From Klenkia soli (GTDB lineage Bacteria > Actinomycetota > Actinomycetes > Mycobacteriales > Geodermatophilaceae): 64,000 nucleotides of DNA. The position numbers were made by a program, and so were the translations under genes. Under the pieces are notes generated by a model. It was not told where the DNA came from and did no database searches. It saw only the letters and a list, made by a program, of their open reading frames with translations. The stretch spans positions 248,001-312,000 of the forward strand of contig NZ_FNIR01000001.1 of the NCBI RefSeq assembly GCF_900103975.1. The letters run 5' to 3'. This document shows, one piece after another, positions 7,274 to 16,357 of the stretch. Position 1 is the first letter of the stretch; the number at the start of each line of letters is the position of its first letter.

Positions 7274-9007
7274 TCACTGCGAGGTCGTCCAGGTGCTGGA
7301 GTTCCACAGCGGCCCGCTCTGCGAGGCGTTGTCCTCGACGTTCTCCGTCGAGGAGTTCCACGCCAGGAACGTGGGCTTCTGGTACAGCGGGATGGTCGCC
7401 ATCTGGTCCCACAGCAGGACGTCGATCTGGTTGGCCAGATCAGCGGCCTGGTCCGGGTCGGGCTGCGCGACGAGCTCGTCGAAGAGCGCGTCGATCTCGG
7501 GGGTGCCGAGCCGGGAGTAGTTCTGCCCGACGTTGTCCCCGGTCACCTGCTGGTAGATGGACTCGTTCGAGGTGATGAACGGCGAGGCCACCCAGGCGAA
7601 CAGCGCGATCTGGAAGCCCCCGGCGATCAGGGAGGTCGGCTTCTCGGGCCCGGCGAAGATGTCCGGGTTGGCGTTGAAGGTCGCCTCGATGCCGGCTTCC
7701 TTCAGCTGCGGGATCATGACGTTGACCGTCGTCTCGCGCAGCGGGTTGTTGGCCGTGGTGTCGATCTGGAACGACAGCCGCTGACCGTCCTTGGCGTAGA
7801 TCCCGTCGGAACCCAGCACGTAGCCCGCACCCTCGAGCAGCGACTTGGCCTGGGCCGTGTTCTGCGTCTTGTACTCGTCGGGGGCGTTGTCCACGTACTG
7901 CGGCTGGTTGTTGACGTAGATCCGGTTGTCCAGGACCTGGGCGTCCGAGGAGAACTGGCCGACCGTCTGGTCCACGATCTCCTGGCGGTCGAGGGCCATG
8001 CCGAACGCCTGGCGGACCACCGGGTCGGCGAGCAGCGGGTCGGTGGTGTTGAAGTCCAGGTGCTCGAACGAGAGCCCGAAGCTGATGGAGCTGTCGACCT
8101 CGGGGGCGAGGTCGGCGACCTGTCCGACCAGGTCCAGCTGAGGCTGCGGGTAGATGACCCCGACCTCCTGGTTCTGGATGCCCTGGACGGCGGTCGTCGG
8201 GTCGCTGCCGATGTTCTGGATGACCAGCTGGGCCAGCCCGGTGGGCTCGCCGTACCAGTTCTCGTTGGGCGTCAGCGTGACGATCTGGCTGCCGACGTCG
8301 ATGTTGTCCTTCTTGATCTGCCACGGCCCGCCGGAGATGTCCTGCGGGATGCCGTCGGCGATCGGCCAGCCTGCCGTCGTGGCCTCGCACTGGGCCTCGG
8401 GGGAGGCGGCCTTCAGCACGTGGGACGGGAAGACCGGGTTGCTCGACCCGGACCAGAGGCCCTGCCAGTCGGCGTAGGGCGTCGTGTAGGTGACGGTGAC
8501 GGTCTTGTCGTCGTCACCGGAGCCCTCGACGGACGCGATGGAGCTGTAGCCCGTCGTGTTCAGCAGCGCCGCGCACCCGCCGTCGGCCGGGTCGGAGCTC
8601 CGCTGGAGCTGCCAGGAGAAGATGAAGTCCTCGGCGGTGATGGGCTCGCCGTCGCTCCAGACCGCGTCCGGGTTGATCGTGTAGACGTTGGTCTGCACCC
8701 CGTCGGTGACGTCCAGGGTCGGTTCCTCGGTCAGGAGGTCCTGGTTGTACTCGACCGAGAAGTCGGGCTTGACGTCGAAGGCGGACGGGAAGAGCTGGGC
8801 CTCGATGTTGGCGACGGAGGTGACGTTGCCGGCCGAGATCAGCGGGAACAGGTTCTCCGGGAAGTCGGCGGACTCACCCACGATGACCCGACCGGAACCA
8901 CCGCCGCTGCTGCCGCTGTCGCTGCTGCCGCCACCACAGGCCGACAGCACCATCGCGCCGGCCACGCCGGTGGCGACGAGCGCTGCGCCGCGCTTGCTGA
9001 ACTTCAC
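7274..9007 (-). CDS. ABC transporter substrate-binding lipoprotein, family 5 (oligopeptide)
   Basis: This is the extracytoplasmic solute-binding protein of the transporter, 577 aa. The N-terminus has KR basic residues, a hydrophobic core and a lipobox VLSAC with the lipid-carrying cysteine at residue 24, followed by a Gly/Ser linker. The body matches family 5 binding proteins: a VWSDGEPITAEDFIFSW motif in the N-terminal third and QAFGMALDRQEIVDQ in the middle. The start is GTG at 9007, seven bases after GGGAGG. The 51 extra residues of the longer open frame are not signal-like and are rejected. It is the first gene of the operon, with a candidate promoter at 9150-9178. Confidence 0.95.
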   Translation of the reverse strand: MKFSKRGAALVATGVAGAMVLSACGGGSSDSGSSGGGSGRVIVGESADFPENLFPLISAGNVTSVANIEAQLFPSAFDVKPDFSVEYNQDLLTEEPTLDVTDGVQTNVYTINPDAVWSDGEPITAEDFIFSWQLQRSSDPADGGCAALLNTTGYSSIASVEGSGDDDKTVTVTYTTPYADWQGLWSGSSNPVFPSHVLKAASPEAQCEATTAGWPIADGIPQDISGGPWQIKKDNIDVGSQIVTLTPNENWYGEPTGLAQLVIQNIGSDPTTAVQGIQNQEVGVIYPQPQLDLVGQVADLAPEVDSSISFGLSFEHLDFNTTDPLLADPVVRQAFGMALDRQEIVDQTVGQFSSDAQVLDNRIYVNNQPQYVDNAPDEYKTQNTAQAKSLLEGAGYVLGSDGIYAKDGQRLSFQIDTTANNPLRETTVNVMIPQLKEAGIEATFNANPDIFAGPEKPTSLIAGGFQIALFAWVASPFITSNESIYQQVTGDNVGQNYSRLGTPEIDALFDELVAQPDPDQAADLANQIDVLLWDQMATIPLYQKPTFLAWNSSTENVEDNASQSGPLWNSSTWTTSQ

Positions 9008-9149
9008 GTTCGATTGCCTCCCTCGACCCGCACCTGCGGGGGGATCTGACCTGGTCTGCCCGGCCGGACACGATCGGCGTCCGGGACGGGCTGGGTTCGA
9101 GCCGTGACGAACCTGTCCGACAGCTGTCGGTCCTGGAACCTCCCGGCGA

Positions 9150-9178
9150 ACACTAGGCACGCCCGTGGGGACCGTCCA
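9150..9178 (-). promoter_or_regulatory. Candidate promoter for the peptide transporter operon
   Basis: Reading the minus strand, TGGACG (9178-9173) and TAGTGT (9155-9150) are separated by 17 bases, matching a primary-sigma -35/-10 layout at 4/6 and 4/6 of consensus. Transcription from here would give a leader of about 135 nt before the GTG at 9007. Confidence 0.4.
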
Positions 9179-9183
9179 CGGCC

Positions 9184-9199
9184 GTCACCGTTTTGTGAC
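9184..9199. promoter_or_regulatory. Palindrome upstream of the transporter promoter
   Basis: GTCAC (9184-9188) and GTGAC (9195-9199) form a perfect 5+5 inverted repeat around a T-rich 6-base spacer. It sits just upstream of the candidate -35 box of the binding-protein gene, a position suited to an activator or repressor. No regulator is assigned. Confidence 0.25.
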
Positions 9200-9434
9200 C
9201 TGGCCTCACGACCTGCGACGACGCAGCCCCGGCGGCCTGCAACACGGCCGCAACACGACGGTCATCCCCGAACGTCTTGCGGGCCAGGGGGCCGGTGGGC
9301 GCAGTTCTTGCGGGACGCCGGGTACCGGGATCCCCAGGGAGCTGCCAGCAGACCGGCAGGTTCGTCGATGTGTGCAGGCCCGGCGGCCGGGTAGTGGTGG
9401 CGGGACCCCGAAAGCCGACGTGAGGAGCACTCCC

Positions 9435-9605
9435 ATGAGCGCCGTGGACAAGATCAAGAACAAGGCCGAAGAGCTGCTGGGCCAGGGCAAGGAGGCCGCG
9501 GGCAACGCGACCGACAACCAGGACCTCCAGGCCGAGGGCCAGAAGGACCAGGCCTCGGGCAACGCCAAGCAGGCCGGCGAGAAGGTCAAGGACATCTTCA
9601 AGTAA
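9435..9605 (+). CDS. CsbD family general stress protein
   Basis: This is a 56-aa, highly charged, cysteine-free protein. The pattern DKIKNKAEELLGQGKEAAGN, then a spaced repeat ending GEKVKDIFK, is typical of CsbD proteins, which are induced in general stress responses in Bacillus and other bacteria and whose biochemical role is unknown. ATG at 9435 follows GAGGAG by seven bases. An in-frame extension back to 9165 is possible but lacks coding character. A bidirectional terminator follows at 9617-9652, so the gene is probably monocistronic. Confidence 0.9.
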   Translation: MSAVDKIKNKAEELLGQGKEAAGNATDNQDLQAEGQKDQASGNAKQAGEKVKDIFK

Positions 9606-9616
9606 GAGGTCCCGAC

Positions 9617-9652
9617 GAGAGGCCCGTCCCGCAGGCGCGGGGCGGGCCTCTC
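9617..9652. terminator. Bidirectional hairpin terminator
   Basis: A 16-bp stem (9617-9632 with 9637-9652, one G-U pair) with a 4-base loop lies between the convergent CsbD and SRPBCC-Nudix genes. Both genes end within 12 bp of it. Confidence 0.8.
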
Positions 9653-9658
9653 GCGCGT

Positions 9659-10417
9659 TCAGAGGCGGGCCAGCAGGGCCCGGACGGCGGGGAGCAGCGG
9701 GCGGTCGGCCGGGATCCAGTCCAGCGCCTCCAGCTCGTCGGCCCGCACCCAGCGCAGCTCGGTGTGCTCGTGGTCGACCGGGTCGCCCGACTCGATCCGC
9801 CCCCACCAGACCCGCAGCGTCGATGCCCCCGGTTCGCCGCCCGCCACGACCCCGGGCAGTGGTACCTCGCCCAGGAACGCCTGCGGGGCGATCTCCACCG
9901 CGAGCTCCTCGCGGCACTCGCGCACCAGCGCCGCCAGCTCGGACTCCCCCGGTTCGACCTTCCCGCCCGGGAACTCCCACAGCCCGGCGAGGGAGCCGCC
10001 GCCCCGTTGCGCGACGAGCACCCGGTCGCCGTCGACGAGGGCGGCACCCACCACCTGGACGACGTCCTCGGCCCGGCGCTGGGCCGCCGCGGCGAGCAGG
10101 TCCAGGTGGGCCTGCATCGCCGCGAGGACATGCCGGCGGACGACCGTCTGGTCCAGCAGCCGGCCGAGCACCCCGGGGACCCGGTTGTCCCACTCGACCT
10201 GCTCGTCGACGAGCGTGCCGGCCCCGGTCGGGTGGAAGTGGCGGGTGTGGCGCACCTGCGCCATGAGCCCGCCGCCCCCGCGGTGCTCGTCGGCATGCGG
10301 TCGGTCGGAGGCGACCTCGGTCAGGGCCCACGGCCAGGGGCGGCCGAGCACGCGGGCGACGTCGAACGCCACGGTCAGCGGCGCCTCCACCAGCGTGGTG
10401 AATCGCAGCTGGAACAC
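9659..10417 (-). CDS. SRPBCC-like/Nudix hydrolase fusion (MutT-type)
   Basis: This 252-aa protein has two parts. Residues 1 to about 115 resemble the SRPBCC/polyketide-cyclase lipid-binding fold (LRFTTLVEAPLTVAFDVARV at the start, a hydrophobic helix AMQAHLDLLAAAA at the end). Residues 118-252 are a Nudix hydrolase with the complete box GKVEPGESELAALVRECREE. Its closest functional analogy is MutT-like sanitising of oxidised nucleotides (8-oxo-dGTP), which is inferred. The WEFPGGKVEPGE motif and C-terminal WVRADELEALDW region are standard for MutT. GTG at 10417 is the best start. It is divergent from the Rrf2 gene across 35 bp. Confidence 0.85.
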   Translation of the reverse strand: MFQLRFTTLVEAPLTVAFDVARVLGRPWPWALTEVASDRPHADEHRGGGGLMAQVRHTRHFHPTGAGTLVDEQVEWDNRVPGVLGRLLDQTVVRRHVLAAMQAHLDLLAAAAQRRAEDVVQVVGAALVDGDRVLVAQRGGGSLAGLWEFPGGKVEPGESELAALVRECREELAVEIAPQAFLGEVPLPGVVAGGEPGASTLRVWWGRIESGDPVDHEHTELRWVRADELEALDWIPADRPLLPAVRALLARL

Positions 10418-10452
10418 GGACCGAGTTTCCCAGACCGGGCAGGATGGGCTCC

Positions 10453-10926
10453 GTGCGCATCTCCGCCCGCGTCGACTACGCCGTCCGCGCCGCCATCGAG
10501 CTGGCCGCAGCCAGCCCCGACGCCCTCACCTGCGACCGCATCGCCACCGCGCAGGGCATCCCCTCCCGGTTCCTGCAGGCCATCCTCGGCGACCTGCAGC
10601 ACGCCCGGCTGGTGACCAGCCAGCGCGGGCGGGACGGCGGCTACCGGCTGGCGCTGCCGCCGAGCGAGGTGTCCATCGCCCGGGTCATGCGCGTGGAGCA
10701 GGGCTTCCTGGCCGAGGTGCACGGCCAGCGGCCCGAGGACGCCACCTACCCCGGCGTCGCCAAGGAGCTCACCAGCGTGTGGGTCGCCGCCCGCGACTCC
10801 TACCGCCGGGTCCTGGAGCAGGTCACGCTGGCCGACGTCGTGGCCGGGAAGCTCCCCGACGCGGTGGCCGAGCTGGCCGAGGTGGAGAGCGCCTGGCGTT
10901 CCTTCGGGGCCGTCCCCGTCGACTGA
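10453..10926 (+). CDS. Rrf2 family transcriptional regulator of sulfur assimilation
   Basis: This is a 157-aa winged-helix regulator. The N-terminus (ISARVDYAVRAAIELA), the recognition helix region (GIPSRFLQAILGDLQ) and the wing (QRGRDGGYRLA) are diagnostic of Rrf2. Only one cysteine is present (near residue 30), so the three-cysteine Fe-S site of IscR/NsrR is missing. This fits a CymR-like, protein- or metabolite-sensing regulator of cysteine synthesis. I prefer GTG at 10453, with CAGGAT seven bases upstream acting as a leaderless -10. ATG at 10444 would add three residues. It is 12 bp upstream of cysC, so it probably regulates that cluster. Confidence 0.88.
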   Translation: MRISARVDYAVRAAIELAAASPDALTCDRIATAQGIPSRFLQAILGDLQHARLVTSQRGRDGGYRLALPPSEVSIARVMRVEQGFLAEVHGQRPEDATYPGVAKELTSVWVAARDSYRRVLEQVTLADVVAGKLPDAVAELAEVESAWRSFGAVPVD

Positions 10927-10938
10927 GAGACTGGCGGC

Positions 10939-11475
10939 ATGAGTGGTGTCGCCGTCCTCCTCACCGGCTTCTCCGGCGCCGGCAAGTCCACGATCACCGA
11001 CGCCCTGGTCGCCGAGCTCGAGGCCGAGGGCACCCCGGTCACCGTGCTGGACGGCGACGTCGTCCGCACGCACCTGTCCAGCGAGCTCGGCTTCTCCCGG
11101 GCCGACCGCGACCTCAACATCCGCCGCATCGGCTGGGTGGCCGGCGAGGTGGTCCGGCACGGCGGCACCGTCGTGATCGCCGCCATCGCCCCGTTCGAGG
11201 AGGCCCGCGAGCAGGCCCGCGCGCTCGTCGAGCAGCACGGCCGGTTCGTGCTGGTGCACCTGTCCACCCCGCTGGCGGTCTGCGAGGCCCGGGACGTCAA
11301 GGGCCTGTACGCGAAGGCGCGCGCCGGGGAGATCGCCACCTTCACCGGGGTCAGCGACCCCTACGAGGAGCCGGTGCGCGCCGAGCTGCGGGTGGACACC
11401 TCCCAGGTCCCCCTCGCCGAGGCGGTCGCGCAGGTCCGGGCGGCCATGGCCGGTGTGGGAGACTCGACGGCGTGA
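10939..11475 (+). CDS. cysC: Adenylylsulfate (APS) kinase
   Basis: The enzyme phosphorylates adenosine 5'-phosphosulfate to PAPS with ATP. The 178-aa protein shows the P-loop GFSGAGKST at residues 10-18, the DGDVVRTHLSSELGFS substrate motif, the DRDLNIRRIGWVA helix and the KGLYAKARAGEIATFTGV lid, all in the usual order and length. It is a stand-alone kinase, not fused to CysN or ATP sulfurylase. It lies between the Rrf2 gene and the leader peptide, whose GTG overlaps its stop. The neighbouring CysH is an APS-type reductase, so PAPS from this kinase may serve sulfation or PAP signalling instead of the main reduction route. Confidence 0.95.
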   Translation: MSGVAVLLTGFSGAGKSTITDALVAELEAEGTPVTVLDGDVVRTHLSSELGFSRADRDLNIRRIGWVAGEVVRHGGTVVIAAIAPFEEAREQARALVEQHGRFVLVHLSTPLAVCEARDVKGLYAKARAGEIATFTGVSDPYEEPVRAELRVDTSQVPLAEAVAQVRAAMAGVGDSTA

Positions 11476-11558
11476 CTGACCGCGGGACGCCTCTGGTGGC
11501 GCGCCTGCACATCGACCTGGGCCGCGTCGTCAGCGCCGCCTGTCGCCGCTCGTCCTGA
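11472..11558 (+). CDS. Short cysteine-containing leader peptide upstream of sulfite reductase
   Basis: A 28-codon frame starts with GTG at 11472, inside the cysC stop (GTGA), eight bases after GGGAGA. It reads TPLVARLHIDLGRVVSAACR in its core. That core matches the small 'putative leader peptide' family that precedes sulfur assimilation genes in actinobacteria (pattern ARxHxDLxRxxSALC as I remember it). A single Cys codon (TGT, codon 24) sits four codons from the stop. By analogy with known actinobacterial cysteine attenuators, ribosome stalling at Cys would control the downstream reductase. The sequence shows the peptide, and the mechanism is inferred. It lies 62 bp upstream of the sulfite reductase. 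Confidence 0.82.
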   Translation: MTDRGTPLVARLHIDLGRVVSAACRRSS

Positions 11559-11620
11559 GCCGCCGCACCCCAGTCCCCGCAACGCCGCGCGCCCGTCCCG
11601 CGCGAAGATGGAGCCCTCCC

Positions 11621-13279
11621 GTGTCCTCCCCCACCCGCACCAGCCGCTCGGCCCAGAAGGGGCAGGGTCAGTGGGCCCTCGGCTACCGCGAACCGCTCAA
11701 CCCCAACGAGCGGATGAAGAAGGACTCCGACGGCCTCGACGTCCGCCAGCGGATCCTCGACATCTACTCGCACACCGGCTTCGACGGCATCGACCCCGGT
11801 GACCTGCGCGGTCGCATGCGGTGGATGGGGCTGTACACCCAGCGCGCGCAGGGCATCCCCGGCGGCAAGACCGCCGTGCTGGAGCCCGAGGAGCTCGAGG
11901 ACTCCTACTTCATGCTCCGCGTGCGCATCGACGGCGGGCAGCTGTCGGCCGAGCAGCTGCGGGTCATCGCCGGCATCTCGACCGAGTTCGGCCGCGGCGT
12001 CGCCGACGTGACCGACCGGCAGAACGTGCAGCTGCACTGGATCCGCATCGAGGACGTCCCCGAGATCTGGGAGCGGCTGGAGTCCGTCGGGCTGTCCACC
12101 ACCGAGGCCTGCGGCGACACCCCGCGCGTCGTCCTGGGCTGCCCGCTGGCCGGGGTGCTCGACGACGAGGTGCTCGACGCGACCCCGGCCGTCGCCGAGG
12201 TCGTGGCGACCTACCTCGGCGACCGGGAGTTCTCCAACCTGCCGCGCAAGTTCAAGTCCTCCATCTCCGGGTGCGCCCACCACTGCACCAACCACGAGAT
12301 CAACGACGTCGCCTTCGTCGGCGTGCGCAACTCCGCGGGCGAGGCCGGCTACGACCTGTGGGTCGGCGGCGGGCTGTCGACGAACCCCCGGTTCGCCGAG
12401 CGGCTGGGCGTCTTCGTGCGCCCCGACCAGGTCTCCGACGTGTGGGCCGGGGTCTGCGCCGTGTTCCGCGACTACGGCTACCGCCGCTCGCGCACCCACG
12501 CGCGGATCAAGTTCCTCATGGCCGACTGGGGCCCGGAGAAGTTCCGCCAGGTGCTGCAGGACGAGTACCTGCACGAGGCGCTGCCCGACGGCCCCGCGCC
12601 CGACCGGCCGGCGACCGACCAGCGCGACCACGTCGGCGTCCAGAAGCAGGTCGACGGGCGCAACGCCCTGGGGTTCGCGCTGCACACCGGCCGCATCGGC
12701 GGCGAGCTGCTGGCGACCGTGGCCGACCTCGCGCAGCAGTACGGGCAGGGCCGGATCCGGACGACGGCCGACCAGAAGCTGGTCGTCCTCGACGTCCCGG
12801 ACGACGTCGTCGAGGAGGCGATCGCGGCGCTGGCCGAGCACGACCTGCAGGTGCGGCCCAGCGTCTTCCGCCGGCAGACCATGGCCTGCACCGGCATCGA
12901 GTTCTGCAAGCTGGCCATCGTCGAGACCAAGGGCCACGCCAAGGAGCTGACCGCCGAGCTCGAGCGCCGGCTGCCCGACTTCGACACCCCGTTGACCATC
13001 AACGTCAACGGCTGCCCGAACTCCTGCGCCCGCTTCCAGACCGCCGACATCGGCTTCAAGGGCATGGTCGTGGGCGGCGAGGAGGGCTTCCAGGTCCACC
13101 TCGGCGGCCACCTGGGCTTCGAGTCCTCCATCGGGCGCAAGCTCCGCGGGCACAAGGTGCTGGCCACCGACACCGCCGACTACGTCGAGCGCGTGCTGCG
13201 CGGGTACCTGGAGCACCGCACCGAGGGCGAGTCCTTCGCGGCCTGGGCGACCCGCGCCGACGAGGACCTGCTGCGGTGA
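11621..13279 (+). CDS. Ferredoxin-dependent nitrite/sulfite reductase (assimilatory)
   Basis: The enzyme performs the six-electron reduction of sulfite to sulfide using siroheme and a 4Fe-4S cluster. The 552-aa protein has two ferredoxin-like repeats, substrate-site arginines and lysines (KFKSSISGCAHHCTNHEIND) and the four cluster cysteines: C423 and C429 (CTGIEFC), C465 and C469 (GCPNSC). The overall form matches mycobacterial SirA/NirA. Nitrite reductase activity is possible, but the location between cysC and cysH strongly favours sulfite. The start is GTG at 11621. The gene overlaps the following zinc-ribbon gene by 4 bp. Expression is likely controlled by the leader peptide at 11472-11558. 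Confidence 0.93.
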   Translation: MSSPTRTSRSAQKGQGQWALGYREPLNPNERMKKDSDGLDVRQRILDIYSHTGFDGIDPGDLRGRMRWMGLYTQRAQGIPGGKTAVLEPEELEDSYFMLRVRIDGGQLSAEQLRVIAGISTEFGRGVADVTDRQNVQLHWIRIEDVPEIWERLESVGLSTTEACGDTPRVVLGCPLAGVLDDEVLDATPAVAEVVATYLGDREFSNLPRKFKSSISGCAHHCTNHEINDVAFVGVRNSAGEAGYDLWVGGGLSTNPRFAERLGVFVRPDQVSDVWAGVCAVFRDYGYRRSRTHARIKFLMADWGPEKFRQVLQDEYLHEALPDGPAPDRPATDQRDHVGVQKQVDGRNALGFALHTGRIGGELLATVADLAQQYGQGRIRTTADQKLVVLDVPDDVVEEAIAALAEHDLQVRPSVFRRQTMACTGIEFCKLAIVETKGHAKELTAELERRLPDFDTPLTINVNGCPNSCARFQTADIGFKGMVVGGEEGFQVHLGGHLGFESSIGRKLRGHKVLATDTADYVERVLRGYLEHRTEGESFAAWATRADEDLLR

Positions 13280-13440
13280 GCGAGCCGGGCGGAAGAACCA
13301 GGCAGCTGCCGCCGTTCTACTGCCCGTACTGCGGCGAGGAGACCCTGCGGCCGCGCGAGACCGAGGGAGAATGGCACTGCGGGTCCTGCCTGCGGGCCTT
13401 CACCCTGCGGACGACGGGAACGGGAGTGCAGCAGCCGTGA
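13276..13440 (+). CDS. Small zinc-ribbon protein in the sulfur cluster
   Basis: This 54-aa protein starts at GTG 13276 (GTGA overlap with the reductase) and its stop overlaps the cysH start. Two cysteine pairs, CPYCGEE and WHCGSCLRAF, are 18 residues apart and form a likely zinc ribbon or small metal site. It has no other recognisable domain. The double 4-bp overlap shows it is co-translated with both reductases. Small Cys-rich proteins are found at this place in other actinobacterial sulfate clusters, but I know of no assigned function. It could shuttle metal or electrons or help assemble the Fe-S enzymes. That is speculation. Confidence 0.8.
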   Translation: MSEPGGRTRQLPPFYCPYCGEETLRPRETEGEWHCGSCLRAFTLRTTGTGVQQP

Positions 13441-14150
13441 GCGCAACCCTGGTCGAACCCACACCCGAGCTGGCCGCCGAGGCCGATGCCCGCTTCGAGG
13501 GGATCGCCGACCCGGTCGAGCAGGCGCTCGCGGTGCTGCGCTGGGCCGGGGAGACCTTCGGCGACTCGTTCGCGCTCACCTCCTCGATGGCCGACGGCCT
13601 GCTCGCCCACCTGGCCGCCCGCGCGCACCCCGGCGTCCAGGTGGTGTTCCTGCAGACCGGTTACCACTTCGCCGAGACCATCGGCACCCGCGACTGGATC
13701 GCCTCGGTCATGGACATCCGGGTGCTCTCGGTCGAGGCCGAGAAGACCGTCGCCGAGCAGGACGCCGAGTTCGGCCCGGCCCTGCACGACCGCGACCCCG
13801 ACCTGTGCTGCGACATGCGCAAGGTGCAGCCGCTGGCCCGCACCCTCGCGGGGTTCAGCGCCTGGGGGTCCGGCGTCCGGCGCGACGAGTCCGAGACCCG
13901 GGTGGGCACCAAGGTCGTCGACTGGGACGCCAAGCGGGGCATGGTCAAGGTCAACCCGCTGGCCGCCTGGAGCCAGGACGACGTCGACACCTACGTCGCG
14001 CAGCACCAGGTGCCGGTGAACCCGCTGGTCGAGATCGGGTACGCCTCGATCGGCTGCGCCCCCTGCACCCGCCCGGTCGCCCCCGGCGAGGACCCCCGCG
14101 CGGGCCGCTGGGCCGGCCGGAACAAGGTGGAGTGCGGCCTGCACACCTGA
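13437..14150 (+). CDS. cysH: Adenylylsulfate (APS) reductase, 4Fe-4S type
   Basis: The enzyme reduces APS to sulfite and AMP using thioredoxin. The 237-aa protein has the PP-loop nucleotide region (SLTSSMADGLL, VVFLQTGYHFAET) and the cluster ligands C124-C125 and C207-x-x-C210. The catalytic cysteine C233 is in the C-terminal ECGLH motif. The CC...CxxC set marks the plant/bacterial APS reductase class, as opposed to the PAPS reductases of enterobacteria. GTG at 13437 overlaps the preceding stop. The frame could extend to 13371, but the overlap start gives the expected length. It is the last gene of the overlapping sulfite-forming block. Confidence 0.94.
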   Translation: MSATLVEPTPELAAEADARFEGIADPVEQALAVLRWAGETFGDSFALTSSMADGLLAHLAARAHPGVQVVFLQTGYHFAETIGTRDWIASVMDIRVLSVEAEKTVAEQDAEFGPALHDRDPDLCCDMRKVQPLARTLAGFSAWGSGVRRDESETRVGTKVVDWDAKRGMVKVNPLAAWSQDDVDTYVAQHQVPVNPLVEIGYASIGCAPCTRPVAPGEDPRAGRWAGRNKVECGLHT

Positions 14151-14173
14151 GGGCGACGCCGCACACTGCCCCC

Positions 14174-14479
14174 ATGACACGACCGCAGGCGCTGTCCGCC
14201 GAAGAAGTCGCCACCGCGGTGGCCGAGCTGACCCACTGGGACGGCGACCCCCAGGGCATCTACCGGCGGTTGACCTTCCCGTCCTTCCGCGCCGCGGTGG
14301 ACGCCGTCGTGCAGATCGCGGACATCGCCGAGCAGATGGACCACCACCCCGACCTCGACCTGCGCTACGACTGCGTCCGGGTCGCCGTGGTGACGCACGA
14401 CGCCGGCGGTGTCACCGAGCTCGACGTCGAGCTCGCCCGCCGGGTCGACGCCCTGTTCCCCGGCACCGACGCCGGCTGA
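14174..14479 (+). CDS. 4a-hydroxytetrahydrobiopterin dehydratase (pterin-4a-carbinolamine dehydratase)
   Basis: This is a 101-aa PCD/DCoH family protein. The conserved active-site motif EQMDHHPDLDLRYDCVRV with the paired histidines is intact, as is the C-terminal ELARRVDALFPG helix. The enzyme dehydrates 4a-hydroxytetrahydropterin so that the cofactor of aromatic amino acid hydroxylases can be recycled. Many bacteria with this gene lack such a hydroxylase and its role there is less clear. It begins 23 bp after cysH, so it may be co-transcribed, but the functional link to sulfur metabolism is not obvious. Confidence 0.92.
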   Translation: MTRPQALSAEEVATAVAELTHWDGDPQGIYRRLTFPSFRAAVDAVVQIADIAEQMDHHPDLDLRYDCVRVAVVTHDAGGVTELDVELARRVDALFPGTDAG

Positions 14480-14596
14480 CCGCCGGGCCAGGTCACCGGC
14501 TGTTCACCCGCAGGGCGACCGCCCGTCGTCCGCTCCTCGCCGTGCTCGACCAGGGTCGGGTGGTCCAGCACGCATGCGATCGGGGAGGACGCCGGG

Positions 14597-16357
14597 ATGG
14601 GCCACGACCACGGGCACCCGCACGACCACGGGCACGACCACGGGCACGACCACGGCCACGACGGCGACGCCGAGGGGACCTGGCGGGACGGCCGGGTCGA
14701 GGACCCGCTGTCGGTGTCCCGCCGCGCGTTCCTGACCCGGGCGGCCGTCGTCGCCGGGGCGGCCGCGGGCGCCGGGGTCCTCGGCGTCGGCGCGGCAGCG
14801 GCCGCGCCCGGCGGCGGACCGGGCGGCCCGGGTGGACCGGGCGGCCCCGGCGGCCGCCCGCAGCCGACCAACCCGTGGAGCGGGGGCAGCCGGTTCCTCG
14901 CCGGGGACCACCACATCCACACGCAGTACTCCCCCGATGCGCAGTACCCGATCGAGACCCAGGTGGCCAAGGCGCAGCAGTACGGCCTGTCGTGGGTGGT
15001 CATCACCGACCACGGCGGCACCGCGCACCAGAAGTTCTCGATCGACCAGATCACCCCGAACATCGAGGCCGCGCGCAGCGCGCACCCCTCCCTGCTCGTC
15101 TACCAGGGCCTGGAGTGGAACATCCCCGGCGCCGAGCACGCGACGGTCTTCCTGCCGCCGGGCCGCAACACCGTCGACATCCTCAAGGCCTTCGAGGCCG
15201 CCTACGACGGTTCCGTGCTGGCCGACCAGAAGAAGATCGCCCGCGCGACCTCCGCCGACGGCGAGCCGTTCGCCCTCGACGCGCTGCGCTACCTCGACCA
15301 GCAGGTGACCGGCGGGCGCACCGAGATCGCCCTGATGTTCGCCAACCACCCGGCCCGGCGCGGCATCGACAGCCCGCACGAGATCCGCGGCTGGCGCGAC
15401 ACGGCCCCGCGGGTGGCCGTCGGCATGGAGGGCGCGCCCGGCCACCAGGCGGCCGGCATCCCGCTCACCGCGCAGGGCCCGGGCAAGGCCCGCGGCTACT
15501 ACGACTTCGCGCCGACCGTCGACAGCTTCGCCGGCTACGCCCCGACCGCGCTGGAGAACCCCTACCGCACCTACGGCGGTTTCGACTGGATGACCGCGAA
15601 GGTCGGCGGGCTGTGGGACTCGCTGCTCGCCGAGGGGCTCCCCTGGTGGATCACCTCCACCTCCGACTCCCACCAGGTCTGGCAGGACACCCTCGCGCCG
15701 GGCACCCAGGACTTCGCGTCCACCGGCAGCCGCGGCGCCCCCGTCGACACCGGCGCACCGATCACCACCTACGGCGACTTCTGGCCCGGCTACTACAGCT
15801 CCACGCTGGTCGCGGCGCCGTCCCGGCGGTACGTCGACGTGATGCGCGGGCTGCAGTCCGGCCAGGTGGTGGCGGTGCACGGCCGGTTGGTCGACGGGCT
15901 CGACGTGCGCGTGCGGGCCTCCCGCGGGGACGGCGACCGGCGCGGGGTCACCCTCGGCGGGCGCACCTGGGTCCGCCGCGGCGGTGACGTCCGGCTCGAC
16001 GTCACGATCGACCTGCCGGCCGGGCCGAACGCCTCCGGCGCGGTGCCGCGGTTGGCGAAGGTCGACCTGATCAGCGGTCCGGTCACCGGCCGCAGCGCGG
16101 ACCAGGACGCGCTGTCGGCCCCGCGGACCACCGTGGTGAAGACCTTCGACGTCAGCGGCTCGGCCGGCGGCCGGCGCGTGCGGCTGGACTTCACCTTCAG
16201 CGGCGTGCAGGAGTCGTTCTACCTGCGGCTGCGCGGCAGCGACGGCAACCAGCTCGACGCGGCCGGCAACCCGCTGCAGGACGTCACCGGGAACGAGGAC
16301 CCCTTCGCCGACCTGTGGTTCTACGCCAACCCGGTGTTCGTGGACGTCCTGCCGTGA
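14597..16357 (+). CDS. Tat-exported PHP-domain phosphoesterase with His-rich N-terminus
   Basis: This is a 586-aa protein. Residues 3-21 carry histidine at every second position (ten His alternating with Asp/Gly). A Tat-type signal follows: SRRAFLTRA at 41-49, a hydrophobic alanine-rich segment, and an AAAA cleavage region near 70. A Gly/Pro-rich linker (repeats of GGP) occupies about 71-90. The PHP metallohydrolase domain begins at DHHIHTQYS (104-112), with TDHGG as its second metal motif. The C-terminal 180 residues look beta-rich. The n-region before RR is unusually long at 41 residues. ATG 14597 follows GGGAGG. The next gene overlaps by 4 bp. Confidence 0.85.
   Translation: MGHDHGHPHDHGHDHGHDHGHDGDAEGTWRDGRVEDPLSVSRRAFLTRAAVVAGAAAGAGVLGVGAAAAAPGGGPGGPGGPGGPGGRPQPTNPWSGGSRFLAGDHHIHTQYSPDAQYPIETQVAKAQQYGLSWVVITDHGGTAHQKFSIDQITPNIEAARSAHPSLLVYQGLEWNIPGAEHATVFLPPGRNTVDILKAFEAAYDGSVLADQKKIARATSADGEPFALDALRYLDQQVTGGRTEIALMFANHPARRGIDSPHEIRGWRDTAPRVAVGMEGAPGHQAAGIPLTAQGPGKARGYYDFAPTVDSFAGYAPTALENPYRTYGGFDWMTAKVGGLWDSLLAEGLPWWITSTSDSHQVWQDTLAPGTQDFASTGSRGAPVDTGAPITTYGDFWPGYYSSTLVAAPSRRYVDVMRGLQSGQVVAVHGRLVDGLDVRVRASRGDGDRRGVTLGGRTWVRRGGDVRLDVTIDLPAGPNASGAVPRLAKVDLISGPVTGRSADQDALSAPRTTVVKTFDVSGSAGGRRVRLDFTFSGVQESFYLRLRGSDGNQLDAAGNPLQDVTGNEDPFADLWFYANPVFVDVLP

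Follow-up and report, generated by a model that had tools for sequence, protein, structure and literature searches.

Runs of Cys codons in leaders before the cys operons of Mycobacterium and Propionibacterium, and before cbs of Bifidobacterium, are reported in the accessible text of Seliverstov et al. (2005; PMC1262725), where these leaders are described as having no terminators and Rho is suggested. In the corresponding portion of Shell et al. (2015; PMC4633059), Cys-rich small ORFs were placed on leaderless mRNAs, and the cysA2 example is described as occupied by ribosomes; a conserved small ORF was placed on a leaderless mRNA before nirA/Msmeg_4527, and Cys-rich leaders were proposed as attenuators. 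Mycobacterial Cys leaders are cysteine-responsive attenuators according to Canestrari et al. (2020), as summarized in an excerpt of PMC9031893. A survey of S. lividans listed eight leader peptides, none of which was assigned to cysteine in the available part of its text (PMC8079986). Outside the actinobacteria, the excerpted description of uORFC-8-2 (PMC8632094) concerns a uORF of Rhodobacterales with conserved Cys codons that precedes a cysteine-related gene, cysS, and resembles the leader described here in these respects; it differs in its tandem Cys codons, the dominance of UGC, and the presence of an intrinsic terminator.

We analyzed a 64,000-nt stretch of the Klenkia soli genome (hereafter, the window), in which genes on the + strand follow the order Rrf2 regulator, cysC, leader, reductase, small zinc-ribbon-like ORF, and cysH. 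The features of the locus are as follows.

10444..10926, + strand: Rrf2-family regulator gene (TIGR00738, 92.7 bits; cut-off 73.3)
10939..11475, + strand: cysC, adenylyl-sulfate kinase (TIGR00455, 190.6 bits; cut-off 138.7)
11459..11464, + strand: -10-like hexamer GAGACT with TGG before it, inside the end of cysC, 7 nt 5' of the leader GTG (-10-like score)
11472..11558, + strand: leader peptide ORF, 28 codons plus stop, GTG to TGA (translation, NCBIfam matches, same-strand leaders in relatives)
11493..11543, + strand: conserved core LVARLHIDLGRVVSAAC, with R11, D15, and C24 in fixed register (register and pN/pS)
11541..11543, + strand: sole Cys codon, TGT, codon 24 (TGT bias across relatives)
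11559..11620, + strand: C-rich, G-poor spacer, candidate Rho loading stretch (33 C, 17 G, 8 A, 4 T)
11610..11613, + strand: GGAG, likely Shine-Dalgarno sequence of the reductase gene (read from the sequence)
11621..13279, + strand: ferredoxin-type sulfite/nitrite reductase of the cysI/sir/nirA kind (Pfam NIR_SIR and NIR_SIR_ferr above cut-offs)
13437..14150, + strand: cysH, phosphoadenylyl-sulfate reductase (NF002537, 246.6 bits; cut-off 154)

All NCBIfam matches of the reductase fell under their cut-offs. Between reductase and cysH, the small ORF (13276-13440) carries two CxxC pairs and overlaps each of its neighbors by GTGA. The leader translates as VTDRGTPLVARLHIDLGRVVSAACRRSS and contains one Cys; its GTG overlaps the cysC stop as GTGA (11472-11475), and a 62-nt spacer separates its stop from the reductase GTG at 11621. 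Coordinates and translation thus confirmed the initial annotation of a 28-codon frame set against the cysC stop, with one Cys, 62 nt before the reductase. The nesting in cysC held in the window's genus (six aligned loci) but not everywhere; at locus L015, for example, the cysC match stops approximately 100 nt before the leader. Among the 30 best-scoring family loci examined, an Rrf2 gene lay upstream of the leader in all 30 and cysC in 23, and the Rrf2 gene claimed for the window scored over its cut-off. The Rrf2 regulator may act on the reductase gene, which would give the two-layer control suggested at the outset.

The likeness to the leaders of actinobacterial sulfur genes noted at the outset was borne out by two NCBIfam models, although both matches were below the curated cut-offs: NF042936 (leader_Ms4527A; 30.1 bits, E 2.6e-7, cut-off 45) and NF042934 (cis_reg_atten; 25.0 bits, E 1.1e-5, cut-off 27). 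The window leader resembles the Ms4527A-type leader in preceding the same kind of gene, in its matching core, and in a putative leaderless geometry, suggested here by a -10-like hexamer, whereas it has one Cys instead of a Cys run. Its core matches positions 3-19 of the 19 positions of the putative leader NF042934; two other Geodermatophilaceae leaders scored 33.2 and 22.0 bits. The mycobacterial precedent cited in the initial annotation was apt in part: cysteine attenuation has been described there, but the leaders concerned carry Cys runs in the source texts available, and the present one has a single Cys.

To determine the distribution of the leader, we built a profile seeded from the surveyed loci, with the best score of reversed-sequence controls (8.3 bits) as threshold. 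The reductase was found in 104 of 112 Geodermatophilaceae genomes (E 1e-60), and 100 family loci were examined after four genomes with fragmentary matches (G036, G037, G038, and G095) were left out. To these we added 128 class and order loci, a non-random sample of best-scoring loci and others chosen by family, drawn from sources with a match in 233 of 296 and 73 of 81 genomes; both draws overlap Geodermatophilaceae. Same-strand leaders scored above the threshold in 218 of the 228 loci, and G301, which at 7.0 bits did not reach the control maximum, was added after inspection by eye. Locus G126 did not offer enough sequence for the test; of the 227 testable loci, 219 have a same-strand leader with this core upstream of the reductase gene, including 100 of 100 examined in Geodermatophilaceae. 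No same-strand leader was found within up to 900 nt in G143, G130, G401, G214, G158, G124, G407, and G424; seven of these eight loci have a leader on the opposite strand. Our profile is not independent of the loci that supplied its seeds, but NF042934 is: counting leaders upstream of any gene, it matched 111 of 112 family genomes at E 0.1 (104 over the cut-off) and, among 14 control genomes, one, which stayed below the cut-off. Judged by sequence conservation, the gene for the 28-residue leader peptide before the reductase is real and widely conserved.

Several comparisons below used a mixed set of 226 leaders, comprising the best match on either strand; 13 of these are divergent, seven of them from the loci without a same-strand leader. 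It underlies the tail and distance ranges, the single-Cys count, the Arg and Asp codon usage, the codon comparison with reductase genes, the -10-like test, pN/pS, third-position T, and RNAalifold. Single-fold pairing was computed for its same-strand members with sufficient room, and terminator and shuffle folding for a part of it (146).

Conservation was centered on an RxHxD core and a Cys codon. Numbered from the core His (H), Arg at H-2 and Asp at H+2 were present in 218 of 218 same-strand leaders, and Cys at H+11 in 217, the exception (G131) having it one codon later; Glu replaced the His in four of the 218. The reductase leader of G301 has Tyr at the His position. In the mixed set, 0 to 11 residues follow the Cys, the distance from leader to reductase match ranges from 28 to 324 nt, and 144 of the 226 leaders have a single Cys codon. 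Since tail length and gene distance vary, what is fixed is how far the Cys codon stands from the RxHxD motif, and not its distance to the stop or the gene. The Arg is written with five codons and the Asp with two, and this synonymous variation points to constraint on the peptide. Ungapped nucleotide identity within the family was 0.838 for the core, 0.339 for the upstream sequence, and 0.464 for that following the stop, in agreement with the earlier expectation that core and Cys position would be conserved more than the flanking DNA. Within the family, the core had a pN/pS of 0.34 and the N-terminal part one of 0.64, and the four codons that follow the Cys reached 1.88; between families (one representative each of 28), pN/pS was 0.52 in the core against 1.06 in codons further upstream. 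The fixed register of Arg, Asp, and Cys is a new finding of this study.

The spelling of the Cys codon was similarly constrained. At H+11, 213 of 217 leaders spell the Cys TGT. The corresponding share was 4.3% in 76 reductase genes (679 Cys codons), and 20 of the 109 Cys codons counted elsewhere in leaders were TGT; at the other NNY codons of leaders, a third-position T occurred in 11.6% (357/3070). All four TGC cases belonged to one family (f4), two more leaders of which have TGT; in the mixed set the other 27 of 28 families had TGT throughout, family f22 being represented by a divergent leader only. Among 80 named loci, which partly duplicate the G-numbered loci, 79 had the leader and all 79 had TGT. 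The Ser codon at H+8 was AGY in 201 of 205 leaders. A pattern search found at least one tRNA-Cys (anticodon gca), and this anticodon reads UGU by wobble, so that a slower codon is the simplest reading of the bias. The near-invariant use of TGT, the rarer of the two cysteine codons, is also new here: no report of a UGU bias was found in the literature searched, and Canestrari et al. (2020), which lies beyond that search, may report part of this.

Leaders of the same kind also precede other genes. We scanned 71 such loci and recognized 57 leaders, of which 49 had TGT and six TGC at the Cys position and two had no Cys there; eight of the 57 were themselves reductase leaders, and the rest had TGT in 41 of 47 Cys codons. 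Outside the window's own genome, the names of the genes that follow these leaders were read by eye. The His position is occupied by Ala, Val, or Thr in the 18 leaders that precede rhodanese, DUF4395, or cysteine dioxygenase-like genes and by His in the other 39. The window's own genome contains six further NF042934 matches (L116, L117, L118, L119, L120, and L122), of which L122 is weak (17.4 bits) and absent from the matches of our own profile. According to Pfam, the genes after these leaders encode DUF4395 and rhodanese (L116), cysteine dioxygenase (L117), a transcriptional regulator C-terminal domain (L118), an FAD-NAD(P)-binding protein (L119), and TauE/SafE (L120). Cysteine dioxygenase destroys cysteine, and look-alikes of the L117 arrangement occur at L344, L347, L348, L358, L359, and L361; induction of such a gene by cysteine starvation would be odd. 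The leader HVDLCRTGSALGRC (L119 and L350) has no Cys at the usual place, and in L119 the last Cys lies two codons later and is written TGC. Of the 228 loci, 18 (e.g., G072, G070, G421, and G416) carry an upstream leader of the same kind on the opposite strand, 11 of them together with a same-strand leader; in L035 and L376, the divergent gene looks by eye like a sirohydrochlorin chelatase or PAPS reductase gene.

Next to the leader, two features of the surrounding DNA recurred. A -10-like hexamer (score of at least 4 of 6) was placed 6-8 nt upstream of an in-frame start codon in 100 of 100 family leaders and in 115 of 125 class leaders with a start, compared with 32 of 220 controls treated alike; the test is loose, as its scale weights A2 and T6 and the best of several starts is taken. 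The promoter scan found no full sigma-70-like site in 11300-11700. The position of the box in relatives, about 6-7 nt before the start, suggests that the leader is probably the 5' end of a leaderless mRNA of its own. Over 215 leaders, C minus G averaged +0.226 in the 50 nt that follow the leader stop and was positive in 212, with +0.26 in the window; it was +0.025 after 35 other genes of the window (two of which reach 0.228) and +0.026 before 30, these controls resting on crude gene calls.

Known forms of RNA-based control were also considered. Classical attenuation through an intrinsic terminator was not supported, as none was found in 11300-11700 of the window and terminator-like sites occurred in 2 of 146 loci. 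A riboswitch was rejected; Rfam gave two matches in 9000-15000, both under their gathering scores and neither at the leader. A conserved hairpin that would explain both UGU and AGC was likewise discarded, there being no class-wide fold and pairing of the Asp codon with UGU in only some members of the family.

On these data, the reading that we favor, and hold to be reasonably probable, is that the leader acts in cis on the sulfite reductase operon, the nascent chain and a slow UGU codon together sensing the supply of Cys-tRNA and the held ribosome keeping the reductase gene on. Transcription would probably start at or beside the leader GTG, so that the ribosome would start on a bare 5' end; in the window's genus, the GTGA overlap may also pass ribosomes on from cysC. 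With Cys-tRNA(Cys) in short supply, the ribosome would wait with UGU in the A site. Counted back from the residue in the P site, the invariant Asp and Arg would then be 8 and 12 residues away, close to where the exit tunnel is narrow, and we propose that the nascent chain deepens this pause. A ribosome waiting there would cover the start of the C-rich spacer and so prevent shut-off of the reductase gene by Rho or by an RNA fold that spans the downstream start. With cysteine plentiful, it would reach the stop a few codons on and leave, and expression would fall. The earlier interpretation is partly supported, namely as to the conserved leader peptide and Cys position, the kinship with actinobacterial sulfur-gene leaders, and the adjacent Rrf2 gene. 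Gating of the reductase by cysteine and two-layer control are proposals, and switching on of the reductase gene by a ribosome awaiting cysteine is the most likely form that such gating would take.

Other explanations share parts of this evidence. Translational attenuation without Rho, in which the leader ribosome would open an RNA fold hiding the reductase start as reported for mycobacterial poly-Cys leaders, is possible but doubtful. The M. smegmatis case is called translation attenuation in the available part of a citing paper (PMC13236596), the leader with the first 60 nt of spacer folded better than shuffled sequences on average (mean z -1.03; 30 of 146 below -2), which indicates that structure may matter in some groups, and RNAalifold gave structures within some single, smaller families. 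However, these differed from family to family, no shared structure emerged from the 209 unique core windows or from the 91 of the family, the window's own leader region folded no better than shuffles (z +1.13), and the spacer alone had a mean z of -0.47 (n=144). We consider an arrest peptide that senses a metabolite to be unlikely; in this case, cysteine, sulfide, or a similar small molecule, not tRNA charging, would be the signal, and its binding to the nascent chain within the tunnel would cause arrest at the Cys codon. Conservation at the peptide level at a fixed distance is what such an arrest peptide would show, and the replacement of His by Ala, Val, or Thr in leaders of the rhodanese, DUF4395, and cysteine dioxygenase-like group would be consistent with ligands or thresholds that differ. 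The conserved Arg and Asp lie 12 and 8 residues before H+10, matching W12 and D16 of Escherichia coli TnaC relative to P24, its site of arrest, in the accessible description (PMC10941005); this is a single coincidence in the spacing, and only one of the two residues is shared. Decoding accounts for a fixed synonymous UGU more readily than ligand binding does. The comparison with TnaC is one of working, not of kinship: in both, conserved residues stand at the same distances from the P site and the spacer after the stop could load Rho (here by its C-rich, G-poor composition only), but the sequences are unrelated and TnaC arrests at a stop with free tryptophan, whereas the candidate site here is a sense codon.

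That UGU is kept for pairing or as a protein site in RNA or DNA, rather than for decoding, appears improbable. The AGY bias of the Ser codon indicates that nucleotides are constrained too, and the third U of UGU was paired in about half of single folds, mostly with A (n=213). Pairing with the A of the Asp codon nevertheless averaged only 0.11, at most 0.03 in 23 of 28 families, with 0.21 in the window's family and a maximum of 0.48 in f22; leaders of other genes mostly keep TGT in different surroundings, and AGY can persist because a switch between AGY and TCN is impossible by one silent step. A chance frame without function is negligible as an explanation. The leader frame is open upstream as far as 9762 in a GC-rich genome, and its openness alone proves nothing; it is conservation that carries the case, and class-wide conservation has already refuted this explanation; the profile matches and purifying selection also speak against it.

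The favored cysteine-supply reading has points against it: a lone Cys codon makes a weak sensor under the usual repeated-codon rule, eight of the 227 testable loci have no same-strand leader, and leaders of the same kind precede cysteine dioxygenase genes, which is not expected under starvation induction. The looseness of the -10-like test and the lack of a full promoter in 11300-11700, the small spacer control (35 and 30 stretches of this window), and possible local RNA structure in some groups also count against it.

A broader and more speculative proposal is that these leaders are nascent-chain arrest peptides across the class, in which a single UGU Cys codon, placed 11 codons downstream of the His in an RxHxD tunnel motif, would serve as a one-codon sensor, its spelling being part of the mechanism and the residue at the His position determining which sulfur genes answer to which signal. 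The kind of leader is known from mycobacteria, but single-Cys leaders across the class are not explained by the repeated-codon model. If decoding speed is relevant, one silent change from TGT to TGC should alter regulation. The mechanism, if true, would tie a leader now annotated only as putative to a mode of action and to a set of sulfur genes.
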